DNA of 64,000 bases from Sedimentibacter sp. zth1 (GTDB taxonomy: Bacteria; Bacillota; Clostridia; Tissierellales; Sedimentibacteraceae), in the NCBI RefSeq assembly GCF_017352195.1, contig NZ_CP071445.1, forward strand, positions 1,302,001-1,366,000, given 5' to 3'. The translations under genes were made by a program, and so were the position numbers. Positions within the stretch are counted from its first letter, which is position 1; each line of letters begins with the position of its first letter. The notes under the pieces were generated by a model. It did not search any database and was not told the DNA's origin. It worked only from the letters and a program-made list of their open reading frames with translations. Positions 2,710-24,187 of this stretch are shown here, one piece after another.

Positions 2710-2742
2710 CTGAGATTATCCTGCTAAAACAGATAGTCTCAG
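2710..2742. repeat. hairpin at the broken end of the transposase relic
   Basis: Arms CTGAGATTATC (2710-2720) and GATAGTCTCAG (2732-2742) pair with one mismatch. It lies between the inverted-repeat element and the ISL3 relic. It has no T tract on either side, so it is not a clear terminator. It may be part of an old element end. Confidence 0.35.
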
Positions 2743-3100
2743 AAGTTAAAATTAGTTAAAACAATGTAATATACGATTTTTAAATCTATTAAAGTTATGT
2801 ACACCATAAGATATACGTATCTTCTTAAATCAACAGGCATTTGTTTTTGAAGCCTTTTTCTCACGTTTTCAATAGCCCAAGTAATTTGTCTAATAAAGTG
2901 ATATTTATCAATAACAATTTTAGCATTAGGAAAAAGAGATTTAGCTAACTCAGTATAAGTGCTGCCACATATCACATACAAAGAAATTAACATTTTTACG
3001 TACTTGCCTTGTATACTTTGTAAAGTAACTAATAAAGTGAGATTGACACCTATCAGTTAAAATATCAATCCCAACATTTATTATAGAACCTTTTTTGTGG
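2740..3100 (-). pseudogene. ISL3-family transposase relic, frameshifted and truncated at both ends
   Basis: On the minus strand two pieces of one transposase can be read in different frames. The first (about 3100 down to 2965) reads VGIDILTDRCQSHFISYF...YTRQVRK...FFVCDMW. The second (about 2976 down to 2815) reads ELAKSLFPNAKIVIDKYHF followed by RQITWAIENVRKRLQKQ. Together they match the central DDE region of ISL3 transposases, where the DMW and IVIDKYH segments hold catalytic Asp residues. The frame changes near 2960-2968. After DLRRY (about 2818) the resemblance stops. N- and C-terminal parts are missing, so this is inactive. Confidence 0.65.
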
Positions 3101-3814: not shown

Positions 3815-4120
3815 ATGGAAGAGAAATTTAATATAAAAACCTTAGAAAAATTTGGTTGTTTAGGTTATCTTGGTTATCTTGGTTCCTTGGGATTTATCTT
3901 GAATGATGCTAATCTTTTTAGATTATTTGGGTTATTTGGATTTTTGGGATTTTACAGTGCAAAATCAGATACTAAAAATATCTTAAGAAAATTTGGTTGT
4001 TTAGGTTTTCTAGGTTTTCTTGGATTCTTGGGATATATCTTTAATAATACTAATCTTTTTGTATTATTTGGAATATTTGGATTTTTAGGACTTTACGGAA
4101 TAAAATCAGATACTTTGTAA
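3815..4120 (+). CDS. small hydrophobic LGF-repeat protein, internal tandem duplication
   Basis: A 101-residue protein made of two near-identical units of about 46 residues. Each unit has FGCLG(F/Y)LG(F/Y)LG, then N(D/N)(A/T)NLF, then LFG(L/I)FGFLG, and ends KSDT. The duplication is also obvious in the DNA (about 3845-3978 against 3987-4120). Each unit should form two short membrane segments. The ribosome site AAGGAGATGTGAATT before ATG is excellent, so it is probably expressed. It recalls short LGFLGF membrane proteins of Firmicutes (DUF3796-like), but that is not certain. It lies between two intron fragments, and its stop codon directly abuts fragment 2. Function unknown. Confidence 0.65.
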   Translation: MEEKFNIKTLEKFGCLGYLGYLGSLGFILNDANLFRLFGLFGFLGFYSAKSDTKNILRKFGCLGFLGFLGFLGYIFNNTNLFVLFGIFGFLGLYGIKSDTL

Positions 4121-6396: not shown

Positions 6397-6588
6397 CTAA
6401 ACAATTATGATATACAATAAAGAATAAATACCTGCCAAACCTATAAGTATATATAAAATTCTACCTACGAGTTTGTTTTTACCTCCAAAGAATTTATCAA
6501 TTAAGTCAATCCCAAACAGGCCATACAATCCCCAGTTTAATGCTCCAATAACTATTAATATAGAAGCAAGTGCGGTAATCAATCTCAT
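6397..6588 (-). CDS. DUF378 family membrane protein (YuzA-like)
   Basis: 63 residues with two membrane helices. It has the family signature: ALNWGLYGLFGIDLID around residues 16-31 and an LYILIGLAGIYSLLY second helix. Function unknown in all species. GGGGG at the usual distance precedes ATG at 6586-6588. Stands alone. Confidence 0.85.
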   Translation of the reverse strand: MRLITALASILIVIGALNWGLYGLFGIDLIDKFFGGKNKLVGRILYILIGLAGIYSLLYIIIV

Positions 6589-6645
6589 TTTATTATCCCC
6601 CGTTACTTTTTTATTATATTATATTAGCATAAGTAGATAATATGA

Positions 6646-9600
6646 TTAATATTTTATTACCTTTTCTATTCTTATTAAATTTTGTATATCATTATCAATA
6701 TAAGACGATACCTTTTTATTTAAATCATAAGACATATTATACCCTTTAATAGGGAATCTAGGTGACTTAATTATTTCCGAAACATTTCTAAGAACAAGAT
6801 TCTTTTCAAATACTTTTTCGTATTCATACTCAATCTTCTCAAATATATTTTTTGTGTTTTGCAAACACAGCATAGATAAATTATATATTACATCCTTACT
6901 AGCACCATCCATAAAGCTTGGTGTCACATATGGTAGTATATGGTTTATTGAAGGTATTAAATTGTTTTCAAGACTTTCAAAACATTTTACTGTATAACCT
7001 CCTATAAATGGGTATAACATACTTTCCTTAAGCCATAATCTAAGATTAGGTATAAAATAAGCATATTCTACTTTTCTATCCTGCATATCCATTAAATCTT
7101 TTCCGCTACTTGATAAAATCGCAACAATAATTTTTTCTACATTAATATTTTTGCTTTTTAATATTTTATCTATACCTTTTATTTCATTGCCATAGTGAAG
7201 AATATCATCAGCTAAAATTATTGGTCTGTTAAATGATTTTATTGTGTCTATCTGTCTCTCTATACTAGCATATGAAGGAGACTCTAAAACATTAAAGTTT
7301 CTCATATCATAGTTATAGTATTTCTCAACATGCAATGATTTTGTTGCTGTGTTTGGTATATATTTTCCTTTAAGTATATTGCCATATGGTACACAAATAT
7401 AGTCTCCAATACCTTTACCATTTTCGATTGTCTCAACATTATTAGAATTACATATCTGCTCTACAAGAGCAGAATTAAGCATATTTACATCAAATGAAAG
7501 TACTAAACTATTTGGATATAGTTTAGTTAAAAATTTTTGTAGTTTTTTCCTTGATTGTTTTACTGTTTCTTTAATCTCTTCATTTAGCATCAAAGGTTCT
7601 TTTATAAAATTTTCTATATCTAATGTTAAACATACTGGAAATTTCATATCAACAGCATAAATATCCTTCTTAAAATCTCCTACCTCTAACTTAGAAAATC
7701 CATGTAATTCTAATTCTTCATATATTTTTTTACTATTATAATTTAAAAGTGTATTGTAATATAATGCATATGTAAAATCATTTTTTAAGCAATACGACAA
7801 AGTTTCAATTAACAATATTTGCTCTAAATTGTTTACCGATGTTGATGGATTACTATACAAGCCATCTATAATTATTATTTTACCAGATGTGTTTTTTCTT
7901 ACATAATTTGCAATATCAACATTTCTAAACTCACTAAACAAATCTTTAAGACTAATATGGTGAAATGCTGAAAACCCTATCAATTTATTTGAAGTATTAT
8001 TTTCCCTAATAACCAATAAACTTATGTTTTTACTAGATAATTCTTCGCCAATATTCTCATACAAATCAGTATACATAAATATATAGCGACCTATTTCATC
8101 AACGATATTCTTACTTAAATCATTTATTATCTCTACATTAAATGTTCTTTGACTAACTGGCTTTTTATTTATATTTTCTCTTTTATACAAACATTTATCT
8201 TGAATATATTTCAATACATTTGTACTTACATAATTACTATTAGCATTATTTCTTAAAATATTTATATTATTTACTATTTCATTTTGCACATGATATACTG
8301 TTTGAAGTTCAATATATCTGCCTTTAATTTTTTTCTTTATATCATTATATTCATCTATATAATTTTTATCGTTATTTTCATTTCTATATATTAAATATTC
8401 ATAATTTATAAAAGTATTTCTATTGGATTTAATCTTATTCTGACAGTTCTCAACAAGAGTATCACTATCAATAACAATTTTAAATTCAGTACTATTCAAA
8501 ATTTTACTCAATAGCTTTAAATCATCAATATTCAAAATATTTATAGAAATATCACTTGGAAATATAAATACGTTAAATTCATCTGCTATTGACATTCTAA
8601 TAATTTCTTTTCTTATATCAAAAGATTGTAAATTCTTTTTCCAACTAAATTCATCCATTGATAAATATACATCATACCCTAAATCTGTTATTTCTTTAAT
8701 GATTTTTTTATGCTCTAATGAAAAAGGGTTAAAGATGTTGCTGAAAAAAGCAACTTTATTATTAGATATTATTTCGAGATTCCCATATTTTAAACTATAA
8801 TTTATAATAAATTGATATATATAATTAAAACTTACTGCGCTGCTAAAAATAAACCTGTTATCATCACTCAATTTCAGTAAATTTAACACTTTTTTGATAA
8901 TATAATCAAAAATAACTTTTTTATCAATATAACTTAATACATCAGAATCAAAAATTTGACTACCAATTAAAGAAATTGTATAATTTCTAACATGTTCACT
9001 ACTATTTATCAATCCACTTGTTATTATGCCTAAAACCTTTAGTAATCTTTGATTATAATCACTTACACTTTCATCAAAGTTTACTTTGTATTCACTATAA
9101 TATTGCAGAATAAAGCCAAGTGTTTGCAATGCTAATGAGCTTACATTTGGGTTTGATTCATTATATAACGTATTTATTTCTTCAATTAATTCATCAAGCT
9201 CTTTAGGATGTAATAGTAGAGAAAATCTTCCTAAATAGTAAGGTATGTATTTTGAAAAATCAAGTTCATTTATCTCTAGTCCTTTTAACAATTCAACTGA
9301 TATTTCATTTCTCTGATCTATTGATAAATAAGTACCAATACTTAAAAGTACTTTTCCTGCTTTATTTCTTACTATTTCCTTTGCACTAACTTTTACTAAA
9401 TTGCATAAGTGTGCTGCTACATGCAAAAGTACAACTTCATGAGCATCTTTTATTGCATCTATAAGAAAATCTATATTTATAATCTTCTCTAACCAATATG
9501 TTGCTGATTTTAAATTTTTTAAAAATATTTCTGATATATTTTTCCTGTTTTCAGACATAAAATTATTGTATTCTACTTGAATAGAATCAGAATAATCAAT

Positions 9601-11439
9601 TAATAATTTAATATTATATTTTAAATAGTTTATACTTACATTTGTTTTATCTGTTATCTTATCAATATGAATTATTATTTTTTCATAACAATCACTTAAT
9701 ACAACATTTTGCTTTAATGCATAGTAAATAAAATTAAGCAATACCAATCTTAATTCATCATTACATTTATCTATATAATAATACACATAATCAAATATCA
9801 ATTTTAACTGATACTTAGAAAATAATTTCAAATCTATTGATTGTAACACCAACAATAGCATTAAAGATGATGATTGATTATCGTTTACTTTATCTAAGTA
9901 ATTCAGCATACATTGCAAATACTCTCTTTTATCATTTATTTCTATTACTTTTAAGTTAGATATAAATGATTTTATAAAATTTCTAAAACAAAACACTAAT
10001 TCATCGTTATCACTTTTATCATCAAAGAGCATTAATTTAATATATTTGTCAAACAGTGTATAACTTAATCTATGCTTAATTTCAACTAAATCTTTATTGA
10101 TATTATAAAATTCAAATAATGCAATCATTTTTCCTAGAAGGTTAGCTGAAATTTCTTTTATTTCACCATCTGTATTTTTTATCAAATAATAGGATAAAAT
10201 TATTAATTCTTTCCTCTTGTCTTTGTCTAAATATATAGCATATTCATTAAAAACATTTAAATACATTTTTACTGTTTCTTTTGAATTACATATTTTCATA
10301 CTTTCAAGTATATCATTAAATTTTTTACTATCATTTAAAATAATCATAATTTTTGCATTATTGCTTAATGAAATATTTTTAACATATTTAACAATATCAT
10401 TACCAGTTAAAAGCGCAACATATTTTTCACTTATAATTGTACCATCAAAATCAAGACTATCAATATTAATACCACAACTAGATAAAAATCCTTCAAAATC
10501 ATGTATTTTTATCCTTATATTATTTTGCAAATCTTTATTCGATATATTAGATAATACTTCATCACATTCACTAACAGATTTAATTACTGCTAAATCATTT
10601 TTGCAACTAAGCCTAAATTTAGAATATATAAGGATTTGAGATTCTATTGGGATATGTTTCTTCATCAAATCAGGTAAATCCTTATTTATAGAAATATTGC
10701 CTATATTATATAATTTATATTTTTCAAACCAATAATTAATATAAAAATTTTCATTTTCAATATTATCACAGTTTATCAGTGCTAATTCACCTAAATACTG
10801 ACCAATTATAGTTGCATATAAATTACCCGTATTTACTTCAATATTTAATGATTTTAATACATTGCATAAATTTTTGCATATATTCAAAATGCCATTTATA
10901 TTAGAAATAACATCATTTTTAGTAAGTTCATGGTTTAATAATATAAGTTCATATATATAATTATTTTTATAAACTTTCACAAATTGATTATACTCCTCAC
11001 CCGAAGCATCACATATTTCATCGCATAAAATACTACTGTTAAATGATTCTTCTGCACTTTCATCCAATTTTTCTAAATATATAAAAGTGGTTTTTAATAA
11101 TTCTAAATATATTAAAACAGCATTGTCGTATTTTGGATCTAATTTTGTAGAAACTAAATTTGGAAATGATTTATTTAAAATGAATTGATATATATAATCA
11201 AGCTCAATATTCGCAAAGGACAAATCCATCAATGAGTATATCACAGATACTAATTCTCTTATATCAACACAAGTAATATTATTTTTAGAAATTATAAAAG
11301 ATAATTTTGTGATAAAAGTTCTATTTAATAACGATGATTGCATTTTCTCTTCTGTTACATTAATTCTGTTGATGAACTCTTTATTTGTCAATTTTTTTAA
11401 TATTTCTTCATGCAATTTGGTTAACGAAATTTTATTCAT
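6646..11439 (-). CDS. 1597-residue multidomain protein: helical repeats, nucleotidyltransferase-like, GNAT-like and phosphoribosyltransferase-like regions
   Basis: The largest gene here. Residues 1 to about 880 are an all-helical, HEAT-like scaffold. Around 895-1030 is a NadD/cytidylyltransferase-like fold: VAFFSNIFNPFSLEHKKI, then DVYLSMDEFSWKK and IRMSIADEFNVFIFPSD; the first His of the HxxH motif is Ser (SLEH). A YVSTNVLKYIQDK segment near 1080 sits where this family has ISST-x-IR. Around 1130-1280 is a GNAT-like stretch (ISLLVIREN, KLIGFSAFHHI, IIIIDGLYSNP). Around 1300-1500 is a phosphoribosyltransferase-like part with the PRPP-loop-like PIILADDILHYGNE near 1405. There is no signal peptide. 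It resembles giant proteins loosely labelled cytidyltransferase in Clostridia; substrate and role are unknown. It is a single-gene unit. Confidence 0.7.
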   Translation of the reverse strand: MNKISLTKLHEEILKKLTNKEFINRINVTEEKMQSSLLNRTFITKLSFIISKNNITCVDIRELVSVIYSLMDLSFANIELDYIYQFILNKSFPNLVSTKLDPKYDNAVLIYLELLKTTFIYLEKLDESAEESFNSSILCDEICDASGEEYNQFVKVYKNNYIYELILLNHELTKNDVISNINGILNICKNLCNVLKSLNIEVNTGNLYATIIGQYLGELALINCDNIENENFYINYWFEKYKLYNIGNISINKDLPDLMKKHIPIESQILIYSKFRLSCKNDLAVIKSVSECDEVLSNISNKDLQNNIRIKIHDFEGFLSSCGINIDSLDFDGTIISEKYVALLTGNDIVKYVKNISLSNNAKIMIILNDSKKFNDILESMKICNSKETVKMYLNVFNEYAIYLDKDKRKELIILSYYLIKNTDGEIKEISANLLGKMIALFEFYNINKDLVEIKHRLSYTLFDKYIKLMLFDDKSDNDELVFCFRNFIKSFISNLKVIEINDKREYLQCMLNYLDKVNDNQSSSLMLLLVLQSIDLKLFSKYQLKLIFDYVYYYIDKCNDELRLVLLNFIYYALKQNVVLSDCYEKIIIHIDKITDKTNVSINYLKYNIKLLIDYSDSIQVEYNNFMSENRKNISEIFLKNLKSATYWLEKIINIDFLIDAIKDAHEVVLLHVAAHLCNLVKVSAKEIVRNKAGKVLLSIGTYLSIDQRNEISVELLKGLEINELDFSKYIPYYLGRFSLLLHPKELDELIEEINTLYNESNPNVSSLALQTLGFILQYYSEYKVNFDESVSDYNQRLLKVLGIITSGLINSSEHVRNYTISLIGSQIFDSDVLSYIDKKVIFDYIIKKVLNLLKLSDDNRFIFSSAVSFNYIYQFIINYSLKYGNLEIISNNKVAFFSNIFNPFSLEHKKIIKEITDLGYDVYLSMDEFSWKKNLQSFDIRKEIIRMSIADEFNVFIFPSDISINILNIDDLKLLSKILNSTEFKIVIDSDTLVENCQNKIKSNRNTFINYEYLIYRNENNDKNYIDEYNDIKKKIKGRYIELQTVYHVQNEIVNNINILRNNANSNYVSTNVLKYIQDKCLYKRENINKKPVSQRTFNVEIINDLSKNIVDEIGRYIFMYTDLYENIGEELSSKNISLLVIRENNTSNKLIGFSAFHHISLKDLFSEFRNVDIANYVRKNTSGKIIIIDGLYSNPSTSVNNLEQILLIETLSYCLKNDFTYALYYNTLLNYNSKKIYEELELHGFSKLEVGDFKKDIYAVDMKFPVCLTLDIENFIKEPLMLNEEIKETVKQSRKKLQKFLTKLYPNSLVLSFDVNMLNSALVEQICNSNNVETIENGKGIGDYICVPYGNILKGKYIPNTATKSLHVEKYYNYDMRNFNVLESPSYASIERQIDTIKSFNRPIILADDILHYGNEIKGIDKILKSKNINVEKIIVAILSSSGKDLMDMQDRKVEYAYFIPNLRLWLKESMLYPFIGGYTVKCFESLENNLIPSINHILPYVTPSFMDGASKDVIYNLSMLCLQNTKNIFEKIEYEYEKVFEKNLVLRNVSEIIKSPRFPIKGYNMSYDLNKKVSSYIDNDIQNLIRIEKVIKY

Positions 11440-11519: not shown

Positions 11520-11903
11520 TTAAAAAATGTTTTCTAAAGTCAAGCATTCATTTCCTCTTACTTTTATAATCAAAGACATTAATTGCTCAATTTCTCCCAA
11601 TGAATAAACTGTACTGTTCACCTCTATGCTTCTATATAATTTATTTATTGATGCTCGAATACTATCAATATCCTCTTGATGAACAAAAAACACCCATACT
11701 TTTTCAATTTTATCCCACTCGCTCATAATTTTTACAGTAAGCTCATACGCTTCATTATATTCATTTTGCAATACAAAATCTGATAACATGTCTAGATTAG
11801 TGGAAAAAAATTCATATGCACTACTAATAGAAAAGTAATAAAAACAAAACCAAATTGATATTATAATTATTAAACACAACAATGATATTAAAATATATTT
11901 CAT
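11520..11903 (-). CDS. DUF4363 family membrane-anchored protein
   Basis: 127 residues. One N-terminal membrane helix (about 4-25) is followed by a helical extracytoplasmic domain with an AYELTVKIMSEWDKIEKVWVFF segment and a VHQEDIDSIRASI segment, which mark DUF4363. The ATG overlaps the stop of the DUF421 gene by four bases (ATGA), so the two are translationally coupled. This pairing recurs in Clostridia. Function unknown. Confidence 0.8.
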   Translation of the reverse strand: MKYILISLLCLIIIISIWFCFYYFSISSAYEFFSTNLDMLSDFVLQNEYNEAYELTVKIMSEWDKIEKVWVFFVHQEDIDSIRASINKLYRSIEVNSTVYSLGEIEQLMSLIIKVRGNECLTLENIF

Positions 11904-12556
11904 ATTATTTCTCCTAAATTTTTCTTTATTAATATATAGTTTTCATCTTCATCTACATATCCATAAATAACATCTTTAAGCTCTAATTTATTTTTCTCTA
12001 ATGCATTATTTAATTTTTTATTAGATAACCTAAATTTCTCCATATTATCATTTGATATTTTCCCATCAACAACAATAGAAATAGGTAATCTTTTACATTT
12101 ATTGGATTTTATATCTTGATTTGCTATTACACTTATTTGCCCATTAGTCTCCATTATCAAGTAATCTATATCTTCAATGTTAGTAAAACCTTTTAATCTT
12201 ATTTGACCTAATATATCATTTACATTTACTCTTAAATCTCTCATTTTTTTTAAATTGAATTTTCCATGTGAAACTAATATACTAGGATTTCCAGATAAAA
12301 ATCGTCTTGCTTTTGAACTTTTTAATGAAATAAATGACGTAAAACACTGTAAAAACATAAGTGTTACAATTGCTGTTATACCATGAGAAATAGGTGAGTT
12401 TAAATCTTCAATAGGCATTGCTGCCAATTCAGCTATCATTAGTGAAATCACAAAATCAAATGGCTCTAGCTCGCCTAATTGTCCCTTGCCCATTATTCTT
12501 AGTGAAAACAAGACAACTACATATAAAACTACAGCTCTTAATAATACTATAATCAT
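11900..12556 (-). CDS. DUF421/YetF family membrane protein
   Basis: 218 residues. Three membrane helices lie in the first 85 residues, with the family motif RIMGKGQLGELEPFDFVISL around 19-38. The cytosolic part follows, with FLSGNPSILVSHGKFN near 89 and LRVNVNDILGQIRLKGF near 109. Bacillus homologues have been connected to spore or membrane functions, but no reaction is established. GGAGATAGAAT precedes ATG. Together with the DUF4363 gene it forms a two-gene operon. Confidence 0.85.
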   Translation of the reverse strand: MIIVLLRAVVLYVVVLFSLRIMGKGQLGELEPFDFVISLMIAELAAMPIEDLNSPISHGITAIVTLMFLQCFTSFISLKSSKARRFLSGNPSILVSHGKFNLKKMRDLRVNVNDILGQIRLKGFTNIEDIDYLIMETNGQISVIANQDIKSNKCKRLPISIVVDGKISNDNMEKFRLSNKKLNNALEKNKLELKDVIYGYVDEDENYILIKKNLGEII

Positions 12557-12601
12557 ATTCTATCTCCAATCTACATACTATTTATTACCATAGTTTTACC
12601 T

Positions 12602-12634
12602 AAAAAAAAAAATCTATAACATTTGTTATAGATT
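12602..12634 (-). terminator. Rho-independent terminator after the PIN-TRAM gene
   Basis: Perfect 10-bp stem AATCTATAAC (12611-12620) / GTTATAGATT (12625-12634), then about ten T on the minus strand (12602-12611). Confidence 0.85.
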
Positions 12635-12651
12635 TCATCACTTATATTATA

Positions 12652-13755
12652 TTAGCTAACTTTTCCCTTTAAAATTGTTTTAATCTTTGCAAATATCATT
12701 CTTCCAGCTGCAGTTTGCAATACACTTGTTACAGTAACAATAACATTAACGCCTATAAATTTTTTACCGCCTTCAACTACAATCATTGTTCCATCATCCA
12801 AATATGCCAACCCTTGATTTGATTCCTTACCATCTTTAGCAATGGTAATATTCATTTCTTCACCTGGTAAAACAATAGGTTTAACTGAATTAGCAAGTTC
12901 ATTTATATTTAAAACTTTTACACCTTGAAACTCAGCAACTTTATTTAAATTAAAATCATTTGTTAGAACTTTTCCACCAAGCTCTTCTGCCAATTTCAAA
13001 AGTTTAATATCAACCTCGACTTCATCCTCAAAATCTCTAGTTTCTATTATAACTTCTATAATTCCTTCTTTTTGTAAATGATTAAGAATATCAAGACCTC
13101 TTCTCCCTCTGTTCCTTTTCAACGAATCCGAAGAATCAGCTATATGTCTAAGCTCCTTTAAAACAAACTCAGGAATAACCAAAGGTCCCTCCAAAAATCC
13201 TGTTTTACATATATCAGTAATTCTACCATCTATAATTACACTAGTATCCAATATTTTAGGATAAATACCCGATTTAGAGGATTTTGAATTTTTAAATTTA
13301 AATCCGTTTTTCTTGAAATTCAAAGCACCAAATAATACGTCTTCCTTTTTCATAGTTGCAATTCTTATACCCAAATATCCTAGTAATATATATAAAAGAG
13401 ACGATATAATAACACCTATGTAAGCAATTTGTATACTTAAAAAAGGTTGACTAATCAAATATGCAATAATAAAACCAAAAATCAAACCTATTGCACCATA
13501 TATAATTTCACCAGCAGAATATTTTAGTATTTCTTTTTCTAAGCTATTTGCAATTTTAGCAATAATACTTATTATTATGGGAGTTAAAAAATAAAAAATA
13601 ATTCCAAAAACAGCACCGCTGACTGCTATAACAACTTGCTTTTGCCAAACGATGCTTAAATTGCTAATCCCAAGTTTATTGATAAAGATTCCAATAAGAA
13701 CTCCTAATACAACTCCTAATAATGAAGTAATTATCCTAATAATTCTTTTTAGCAC
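12652..13755 (-). CDS. PIN/TRAM domain membrane protein (YacL type)
   Basis: A predicted membrane-anchored ribonuclease-like protein. Four membrane helices occupy residues 1 to about 130. A PIN domain follows (from about 167, with [22 protein letters not shown] and LTNDFNLNK supplying the acidic metal ligands). A C-terminal TRAM RNA-binding domain comes last ([16 protein letters not shown]). The start is taken as GTG at 13753-13755, which has GGGGG 8 bases upstream; a GTG three codons earlier would overlap the ribosome site. It follows carD, an order common in Clostridia. RNA targets are unknown. Confidence 0.9.
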
Positions 13756-13842
13756 TAAATCCACCCCCTTTCTTTCTAATTAAATGTTATATTTATCATA
13801 TTGTGTAAACATTAATTATATCTTAAATATAGCATGATAATA

Positions 13843-14328
13843 CTAAATTATTTTTTCAATCACATCATCTAAGTGCTCTGAAACAACAATTCCATCTTCA
13901 TCTGTTGATAACGCTATCTCGCTTATAAGCATTTGCTTTGCGTTTACAAGCATTTTCTTTTCACCAGTAGACAATCCTTTCTCTTTATCCCTAAAGGCTA
14001 AATCTCTTACGACATGTGCTAATTGAAAAATATCACCAGTCCTCATTTTTTCCATATTTTCTCTATACCTTTTATTCCAATTAGCAGTATTTTCTTCTGC
14101 TTCCTGCTCAAAAACTGATAAAACCTCTTTTACCTTATCTTTATCAATAATATTTCTCAAACCCATTCTATTAACATTATCAACAGGTATCATAAGTTTA
14201 ATTTCTCCTATTGGCATCTTAAGTATATAATATTTTCTGATTTCACCAAGAATTTCTTTTTCTTCGACTGATTCAATCTTACCCGCCCCATGCATTGGGT
14301 AAACTACCTTATCACCTAAATTATACAT
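13843..14328 (-). CDS. carD: CarD family RNA polymerase-binding regulator
   Basis: 161 residues. The N-terminal Tudor-like domain (MYNLGDKVVYPMHGAGKIE) binds the beta subunit of RNA polymerase. The C-terminal helical domain (WNKRYRENMEKMRTGD, LAHVVRDLAFRDKEKGLSTGEKKML) contacts DNA at the upstream edge of the bubble. CarD/CdnL proteins stabilise open promoter complexes, especially at rRNA promoters. AGGAGG lies 6 bases before ATG, and a good sigma-A promoter lies about 20 bp upstream. Confidence 0.92.
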   Translation of the reverse strand: MYNLGDKVVYPMHGAGKIESVEEKEILGEIRKYYILKMPIGEIKLMIPVDNVNRMGLRNIIDKDKVKEVLSVFEQEAEENTANWNKRYRENMEKMRTGDIFQLAHVVRDLAFRDKEKGLSTGEKKMLVNAKQMLISEIALSTDEDGIVVSEHLDDVIEKII

Positions 14329-22468: not shown

Positions 22469-24127
22469 TTACATTAATTTGTCTATAGCATAAATAAATT
22501 TATCTACTAAATCAGGATCAAACTGTGTACCCTTGCAACGCCTTAATTCCTCAAAAGCATCCTCGTAGTTTTTCTTGCGTTGATATGGTCTGTTTGCAGT
22601 CATTGCATCAAAACTATCTGATATTGACAACATCCTAGATAGTTCGTTTATGTTATTACCCTTTAATCCATATGGATATCCAGAGCCATCAAATCTCTCA
22701 TGATGCTGACGAACAATGTCTACAATATTGTTATCAATTTGATGCATCTGTCCAATAATATCTGCACTGTCAATTGGATGCTTTTTAATCTCATCCCATT
22801 CCTCTTTTGTAAGTTTCTTGTTCGAAATCAATATATCTTTAGAAATATTTATCTTGCCTATATCGTGTAAATACGCACCATAGACTAATTGCTTTTTTTC
22901 CTCATTACATAGCTTTAAATAATCAGCAAAAATCTGGCAGTAAATAACTACACGCTCTGTATGGCTATATGTATAATGGTCTCTTGAGTTTACAATAGTA
23001 ATTAGTGCTTTTACTGATGTCATACCCTTATCGTTATCAATATCCAAGTCAGAAAACTGCTCAAATACAGATGTATACAACTCAACTCTATTTTTACGAA
23101 AAAACTTTGCCCTGTACAATGCAATATCAGCACGTTCAATAAAGTTTCTAACATTATCATCACTTTTTTTTCTTTCTGAAACCCCAATAGAAATCGTTAA
23201 ATTATGATTAGGCATAAGCTCCTGACCTTTAAATTTATGGTCATATATTTTTTCCCTTATATTGTTGGCAAATTCAATCGCCTTTTTCTGATTTATACCA
23301 GGGTAAATTACTGTAAATTCTTCTCCGCCATATCTGCAAATTATATCTTTTTGTTCTGAACTACTTTTAATCACATAGGCTATTTCCTTTAATATATCGT
23401 CACCAACCTGATGTCCATATAAATCGTTGTAAGACTTAAAATAATCTATATCAATCATTATAACTGAAATAGCTTTTTCACATTCAGGGTCATTTTTAAA
23501 CATATTTTCTAAAGTTTCATAAAAATAACAATGGTTATATAAACCTGTTAAAAAATCTATATTGGCACGGTTTTTCAATTCAGATATATGTTCACCTTCA
23601 ATTTTTACATAGAAACCAACCACCCAAGCTACTAAATAGAACATTGCAGTCAATGCTATGTCTGACTGAAAATAAGGATTTACACCATCACTTTTATACA
23701 TAATCAAATCCATCGCTAATATAGTAATTGAGGATATTGTCGCAACATATGAGCCTAAATTAAACCCATACTCCATAGTATATACAACTATCATAAACAA
23801 GAACATATACTTATAATAACTTTCATATCCTCCACTATATAACAGTGCACATAAACATATTAAATAGTAGACTACTATTTCAACGTATTTGCAAAATTTA
23901 TTATTAACAAACTTAATATTGACTACAAACCACAAAATAACAACTGCAATTATAACAACCAAAAATACTACTGGCATTAGAATATTAAAATTTGACCAAA
24001 TGTGAAATGCATTTTCAGTAAAATAATATTGAAAAACTGGTGTTGTACAAAAAAGCAATGCCAAAATTTTCAAGGTGAAAAACATACTGTTAAATTTTTT
24101 TTGCTTTTCATTGTCCCATTCGTGCAT
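22469..24127 (-). CDS. membrane GGDEF and HD-GYP protein (cyclic-di-GMP turnover)
   Basis: 552 residues. Five to six membrane helices (about 15-180) precede a GGDEF domain with an intact active site RYGGEEF (near 266), so it can in principle make c-di-GMP. An HD-GYP phosphodiesterase follows, with YSHTERV (near 386), LHDIGK (near 422) and HHERFDGSGYP (near 474), so it can also degrade it. The start is ATG 24125-24127 behind GAGGTG; a GTG 42 bases upstream lies inside a hairpin and is less likely. It is the last gene behind agrD on the same strand, with that hairpin between them. Confidence 0.92.
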   Translation of the reverse strand: MHEWDNEKQKKFNSMFFTLKILALLFCTTPVFQYYFTENAFHIWSNFNILMPVVFLVVIIAVVILWFVVNIKFVNNKFCKYVEIVVYYLICLCALLYSGGYESYYKYMFLFMIVVYTMEYGFNLGSYVATISSITILAMDLIMYKSDGVNPYFQSDIALTAMFYLVAWVVGFYVKIEGEHISELKNRANIDFLTGLYNHCYFYETLENMFKNDPECEKAISVIMIDIDYFKSYNDLYGHQVGDDILKEIAYVIKSSSEQKDIICRYGGEEFTVIYPGINQKKAIEFANNIREKIYDHKFKGQELMPNHNLTISIGVSERKKSDDNVRNFIERADIALYRAKFFRKNRVELYTSVFEQFSDLDIDNDKGMTSVKALITIVNSRDHYTYSHTERVVIYCQIFADYLKLCNEEKKQLVYGAYLHDIGKINISKDILISNKKLTKEEWDEIKKHPIDSADIIGQMHQIDNNIVDIVRQHHERFDGSGYPYGLKGNNINELSRMLSISDSFDAMTANRPYQRKKNYEDAFEELRRCKGTQFDPDLVDKFIYAIDKLM

Positions 24128-24154
24128 TTTATAATTCACCTCATTAAATAATTT

Positions 24155-24187
24155 GGTAGGAGAGAACACAATTTCTCACCTACCCTA
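24155..24187 (-). terminator. hairpin between agrD and the GGDEF/HD-GYP gene
   Basis: GGTAGG-A-GAGAA and TTCTC-A-CCTACC form an 11-bp stem with one A/A mismatch. The sequence after it on the minus strand is AT-rich but not a pure T tract. It may terminate partly or protect the upstream mRNA, leaving some read-through into the next gene. Confidence 0.5.

Follow-up and report, generated by a model that had tools for sequence, protein, structure and literature searches.

The window analysed here is a stretch of 64,000 nucleotides from Sedimentibacter sp. zth1 (contig NZ_CP071445.1, positions 1,302,001 to 1,366,000), and we focus on one large gene within it, termed gene A, and on two genes, B and C, that accompany it in related genomes. 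As already recognized in a preliminary description of the stretch, gene A occupies positions 6646..11439 as an open reading frame of 1597 codons; it lies on the minus strand, starts with an ATG at 11439 and ends with a stop codon at 6646-6648, with no internal stops. A purine-rich stretch resembling a ribosome-binding site, GGAAGTGAG, is located directly 5' of the ATG. The genome, a single contig of 3.13 Mb, contains one copy of the gene, and the existence of near-full-length orthologues with about 29-44% identity in many genomes shows that it is not a chance reading frame. Of the 27 genomes of the family, 26 encode a near-full-length relative, as do 65 of the 199 genomes of the order. The loci compared below (L numbers, n=80) are the best 80 of 309 matching stretches; within these, the named genera carrying A are Sedimentibacter, Dethiosulfatibacter, Clostridium, Caloramator, Alkaliphilus, Tepidibacter and Anaerotignum, and beyond the Firmicutes the gene occurs in several Atribacterota metagenome-assembled genomes (MAGs) and in one Calditrichales genome. 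We conclude that the window copy was inherited vertically and is the orphan of an A-B-C cassette that has not been described; it has lost its HD and nucleotidyltransferase sites, as judged from their motifs, together with genes B and C.

Intact A proteins, which are ~1620 amino acids long, are arranged in the order helical region, HD domain, HEAT repeats, NadD-like nucleotidyltransferase, GNAT fold and phosphoribosyltransferase fold. A Pfam search with the window protein by itself gave no match, and the family alignment was required. For the C-terminal part, the preliminary description had proposed NadD-like, GNAT-like and phosphoribosyltransferase-like regions on the basis of three motifs, which are indeed present (FFSNIFNPFSLEH at residues 898-910, LIGFSAFHHI in the 1150s-1160s and IILADDILHYG at about 1407-1417). 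These assignments are supported by an AlphaFold2 model of window residues 880-1597, calculated from a 55-row alignment (predicted local distance difference test, pLDDT, 84; predicted template modelling score, pTM, 0.86), and by Foldseek matches of this model in the PDB to GNAT, NadD/NMNAT and xanthine and uracil phosphoribosyltransferase (XPRT/UPRT) structures. The NadD-type nucleotidyltransferase fold (residues 890-1090; 8170..8772, minus strand, as for all domains of A) matches 4ybr, 8aii and 1nup with E values of ~3e-4. The GNAT-fold domain (residues 1096-1267; 7639..8154) aligns with 4ua3 (SpNatD) over 149 residues (VIA-align Z score 14.9, root-mean-square deviation 2.6), while the type-I phosphoribosyltransferase-like domain (residues 1290-1520; 6880..7572) resembles UPRT/XPRT (Foldseek E ~1.5e-4) and corresponds to PF00156 in 14 of 20 relatives. 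At the level of family models, NCBIfam NadD entries match 15 of 15 A members and the APRT model 12 of 15. In the AlphaFold2 model, a helical tail completes the protein (residues 1521-1597; 6649..6879).

The 880-residue helical scaffold that was thought to precede these domains is only partly confirmed, as a degenerate HD domain had been overlooked within it. An AlphaFold2 model of the N-terminal part of a Sedimentibacter relative (pLDDT 88 overall) is nearly all helical and provides the N-terminal helical region (residues 1-150; 10990..11439). The HEAT-repeat scaffold (residues 331-889; 8773..10449) was assigned by Foldseek and VIA-align similarity to PP2A-A, karyopherins and CAND1; the HEAT-like matches span ~376 to 902 of the relative's model, PF02985 is found in 8 of 15 members, and the fold search with the N-terminal model was swamped by HEAT proteins. 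Between these two regions, sequence profile and motif point to residues ~151-330 (10450..10989) as an HD domain. The relatives carry the signature TLDHICGVH, AAGHDIGKYG, LHYYYT, NHSTWDLELEN and IYSDFRVK, in line with the H...HD...H...H...D metal-ligand motif of this superfamily (PMC8177086), and PF01966 matches 16 of 20 of them (best E 2.7e-5; one match, at 17.2 bits, is below the cut-off of 22). PF01966 does not match the window protein, and a profile of the HD part retrieved no PDB sequence.

Judged by their motifs, the HD site of the window copy is destroyed and its nucleotidyltransferase is dead. Across 73 other full-length A sequences, to which all motif and ligand counts refer, the HD ligands H180, H214-D215, H253 and D274 and the His of the LHYYYT-type motif are kept without exception, and in the window all of them are replaced (H180N, H214Q, D215Y, H253K and D274K, with the LHYYYT His absent). 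In the nucleotidyltransferase, the relatives keep PG[TSA]FDPF and ISSxxIR, but their FFPGTFDPF reads FFSNIFNPF in the window, due to P900S, G901N and D904N, and further changes affect S1055I, S1056V and the Arg of ISSTxIR, which is absent. Compared with the GTFDPxHxGH and ISSTxxR consensus, the window thus has SNIFNPFSLEH and EIVNNIN. The first residue of HxGH (window residues 907-910) is Ser or Thr in 73/73 relatives (SLSH, SLGH, TLGH). With 23.9 bits, the window domain is below the curated NadD family cut-off of 164. The counts of invariant residues, which are positions invariant across 72 relatives, follow the same pattern: 35 of 58 are changed in the HD domain (maximum in any other sequence, 4), 20 of 48 in the nucleotidyltransferase (maximum 7) and 11 of 60 in the HEAT repeats (maximum 5), compared to none of 8 in the GNAT domain and 4 of 44 in the phosphoribosyltransferase domain (maximum 6). 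Likewise, the terminal branch of the window sequence has a length of 3.26 for HD and 1.95 for the nucleotidyltransferase, against medians of 0.16 and 0.14 for the others, and of 0.58 for GNAT plus phosphoribosyltransferase, where the others have a median of 0.19 and a maximum of 0.75. The GNAT and phosphoribosyltransferase parts of the window protein therefore evolve about as in its relatives. One of the four phosphoribosyltransferase changes, R1419E, removes an invariant Arg from the phosphoribosyl pyrophosphate (PRPP) loop (DDILHYGNE in the window, DDLLHKGYR in the family).

In the relatives, A is the first gene of an operon that also contains B and C; only in the window genome does the gene stand alone, as had been noted before. 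B (~410 amino acids) is located downstream of A on the same strand in 70 of the 80 loci with a median gap of ~10 bp, and C (~350 amino acids) follows on the same strand in 61 loci; the gaps between the genes are near zero or overlapping. In most of the loci without B or C, the sequence ends too soon to tell. B resembles lactate and malate dehydrogenases (LDH/MDH): the NAD-binding domain PF00056 is above cut-off in several members, a PDB search retrieved LDH1 with an E value of 7e-8, and the conserved segments DVR, SDPVD, MNARA and GPHG resemble LDH catalytic segments. It also has an N-terminal extension of ~110 amino acids and reaches about 30 bits against LDH family cut-offs near 300. C resembles FMN (flavin mononucleotide) reductases (PF03358, FMN_red, ~70-80 bits) and contains an invariant four-Cys cluster, DCxGC...C...C, which suggests a similarity to iron-sulfur flavoproteins. 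These constant partners, a dehydrogenase and a flavoprotein, soften the earlier statement that the locus gives no hint of a substrate. A putative A-B fusion in L072 (2164 amino acids) was rejected, because its surplus length is an upstream in-frame extension. In L071 (Fonticella) and L103 (a Clostridiaceae MAG), A-B pairs occur with no C within 8 kb downstream, and C may be replaceable or encoded elsewhere.

The three genes are present in an all-or-none manner but for contig ends, and the window genome is the only real exception. In the census of the 199 genomes of the order, A is found in 65, B in 63, all of which contain A, and C in 62, all of which contain A and B; the sets are thus nested. 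B is missing from two A-positive genomes: that of the window, which is closed, and G017, in which A itself is cut off by the end of the contig; the lack of C in G190 also reflects a contig end. In a phylum sample of 398 genomes, full-length A was detected in 8 and B in exactly the 7 other than the window genome. Genome-wide searches of the latter revealed neither B nor C. At the site that B and C occupy in relatives (6397..6645, minus strand), a small open reading frame of 63 amino acids directly follows A. The four upstream neighbours (11520-11903, 11900-12556, 12652-13764 and 13843-14328, together 11520..14328 on the minus strand) are collinear with Sedimentibacter, and window A is therefore the positional orthologue, from which B and C are missing. 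A short open reading frame at 2739-2993 (minus strand), between gene A and an RNA methyltransferase gene, resembles, on reading, part of an ISL3-type transposase and may have been left behind by the rearrangement through which B and C disappeared.

Several other contexts for A were considered. No relatives of A were found in phage and viral collections, and the lone plasmid match is a chromosome-sized Acetoanaerobium record of 2.63 Mb, in which A is unannotated, so that a plasmid location was rejected. The PADLOC anti-phage models gave no match for A or B and one weak, unconvincing match for C (14.5 bits, E 0.007). A role as a sporulation gene was rejected because Spo0A is absent from 16 of the 65 A-positive genomes and 24 genomes with Spo0A do not carry A. 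A strict link to LarA and its NAD-derived nickel-pincer cofactor was also rejected: LarA_N matches are lacking in about half of the A-positive genomes, and about 25 genomes have LarA but not A.

For the intact cassette we favour, with a confidence somewhat short of even, a function of A, B and C in making, editing and redox-processing a nucleotide-linked metabolite similar to NAD, with HD, nucleotidyltransferase, B and C acting as one unit that was lost in the window lineage. In such a pathway, the HEAT repeats would serve as a scaffold for the chemistry of the cassette, and the phosphoribosyltransferase domain would either make the ribonucleotide or bind and sense it. The NadD-like domain would then add a nucleotidyl group to generate the NAD-like product, while the HD domain may hydrolyse wrong or spent product and thereby edit or recycle it, by analogy to YqeK, an HD diphosphatase which, fused to NadD or clustered with it, destroys wrong dinucleotides (PMC9426524). 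B and C might perform redox steps on a nicotinamide- or flavin-like moiety or its acid. That HD, nucleotidyltransferase, B and C form a single functional unit is suggested because precisely these vanished as a set from the window lineage. The window genome encodes a true NadD (193 bits) elsewhere, which indicates that the nucleotidyltransferase of A is not the housekeeping enzyme. A bolder version appears doubtful to us: an undescribed, self-contained pathway of anaerobic Clostridia-type Firmicutes, and also of the Atribacterota MAGs and the Calditrichales genome, in which a HEAT-scaffolded megaenzyme with HD, nucleotidyltransferase, GNAT-fold and phosphoribosyltransferase domains works with two redox enzymes to synthesize a non-canonical nucleotide cofactor, to edit it and to put it to use, and for which the window lineage represents a natural, domain-resolved knockout separating HD, nucleotidyltransferase, B and C from GNAT and phosphoribosyltransferase.

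Some observations weigh against the favoured pathway. The loss as a set is known from one lineage only, and the HEAT branch of the window is also accelerated (1.69 versus a median of 0.26), so that relaxation is not strictly confined to HD and nucleotidyltransferase. The canonical PRPP loop, [DE][DE]xxx[TS]Gx[TS], is found in 0/73 relatives and is also absent from the window, and the acyl-CoA motif Q/RxxGxG/A is missing from the GNAT domain of the window and of 72/73 relatives; either domain is therefore perhaps a non-catalytic binding domain even in intact A. Finally, the Marinisporobacter MAG loci L089 and L098 have intact A motifs and no B or C within 3.8-8 kb, which implies that B and C need not adjoin A. 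McD2.5 also carries a second copy of A (L091), which is accompanied by B and C, and an A-only paralogue may exist.

The non-canonical PRPP loop and the family-wide absence of the coenzyme A motif would also fit a sensor or regulator, in which the NadD, phosphoribosyltransferase and GNAT folds bind NAD(P), PRPP and coenzyme A, the HEAT repeats transmit the state, the HD domain turns over a nucleotide signal, and B and C act as redox-sensing partners; the large distance of B from genuine LDH also speaks for this. We nevertheless regard it as unlikely, because the HD ligands and the PGTFDPF and ISSTxIR motifs are strictly kept in intact copies, as in working catalysts, and because no conserved regulator target gene is located near A in the loci of the relatives.

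A further question is whether the window copy has any function left. The loss of B and C could have made A useless and turned it into a slowly decaying pseudogene in the making, and the acceleration of all three regions (HD, nucleotidyltransferase and HEAT) and the loss of the PRPP-loop Arg are consistent with this. However, 200 neutral simulations, run from the nearest relative to the divergence that is observed, produced ~7-13 stops each in the HD and nucleotidyltransferase regions, with a minimum of 1-5, while the observed number is 0, and all 1597 codons are free of frameshifts as well. In addition, the changes in GNAT and phosphoribosyltransferase are within the range of functional relatives, the codon-position GC bias is retained in most domains, and the ribosome-binding-site-like sequence is in place. 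Decay is therefore improbable; the zero stops and the conserved GNAT and phosphoribosyltransferase domains argue for selection that maintains the reading frame, most likely on account of the C-terminal domains. Still less probable is a remodelling of the HD and nucleotidyltransferase regions for a new ligand or function, as the retained frame and the many substitutions might suggest, because the HD ligands and the phosphate-binding residues of the nucleotidyltransferase were all replaced by dissimilar residues or gaps, and B and C were lost too. The chemistry proposed in the preliminary description, which saw three enzyme-like domains with nucleotide-, CDP (cytidine diphosphate)- or PRPP-linked activity, fails for the window copy, and a working three-enzyme protein is very improbable despite the present folds and the conserved GNAT and phosphoribosyltransferase domains, since PGTFD and ISSTxIR are lost and R1419E is found; nothing in the nucleotidyltransferase indicates CDP, and the relatives belong to the NadD family of nicotinic acid and nicotinamide mononucleotide adenylyltransferases. 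Within the favoured pathway, what is left in the window would be a GNAT/phosphoribosyltransferase protein on a HEAT scaffold, probably as a binding or regulatory remnant or with partial activity.

Two further features of the window were observed. A 101-amino-acid open reading frame at 3815-4120 (plus strand) is made up of two halves that resemble each other and contain many LGFLGFLG repeats; its product is probably a small membrane protein. A protein of 566 amino acids encoded at 22469-24169 (minus strand) apparently combines, on reading its sequence, a GGDEF diguanylate cyclase with an intact HD-GYP domain, which contrasts with the ruined HD domain of gene A.

A ~1620-residue protein with four catalytic folds, whose gene accompanies two redox genes in an all-or-none manner across about 70 of the genomes sampled, points to an unrecognised nucleotide or redox metabolism of anaerobes. 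The window genome constitutes a rare natural experiment, in which two active sites and two genes are gone and the rest is under constraint; its losses predict which parts act as a unit and make the function testable. In the open-licence literature searched, we found no publication and no curated family in which A or the A-B-C cassette is described, which agrees with the preliminary description in that no function has been described; the folds of A are individually known, and it is their combination and their obligate partners that are not described there.

Among known systems, L-lactate and malate dehydrogenases resemble B in PF00056 and in the four conserved segments, but B differs by its N-terminal extension and its low family scores, and it is missing from the window genome. 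Type-I phosphoribosyltransferases (XPRT, UPRT and the hypoxanthine enzyme HPRT) share the predicted fold of the A domain and its PF00156 matches, yet A has DDLLHKGYR in place of DDxxxTGxT and extra conserved C-terminal segments. NadD/NMNAT enzymes (TIGR00482) share fold and family with the nucleotidyltransferase, with 3h05, 8aih, 4ybr and 1nup among the nearest structures, whereas A is far below curated cut-offs (24 versus 164 bits for the window), its relatives have SLSH or SLGH instead of HxGH, and the window lacks PGTFD and ISSTxIR. The closest counterpart is the bifunctional NadD-YqeK protein (JCVISYN3A_0380 type; PMC9426524), in which a single polypeptide likewise comprises both a nucleotidyltransferase of the NadD family and an HD phosphohydrolase, and whose HD domain proofreads the NadD products. 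In contrast to this protein, A carries its HD domain at the N-terminal side, separated from the nucleotidyltransferase by ~560 HEAT residues, with the GNAT and phosphoribosyltransferase domains coming after the latter; A is linked to B and C, its genomes encode an independent NadD as well (as demonstrated for that of the window and suggested by second matches in G197 and G338), and in the window both of the corresponding sites are dead by motif.

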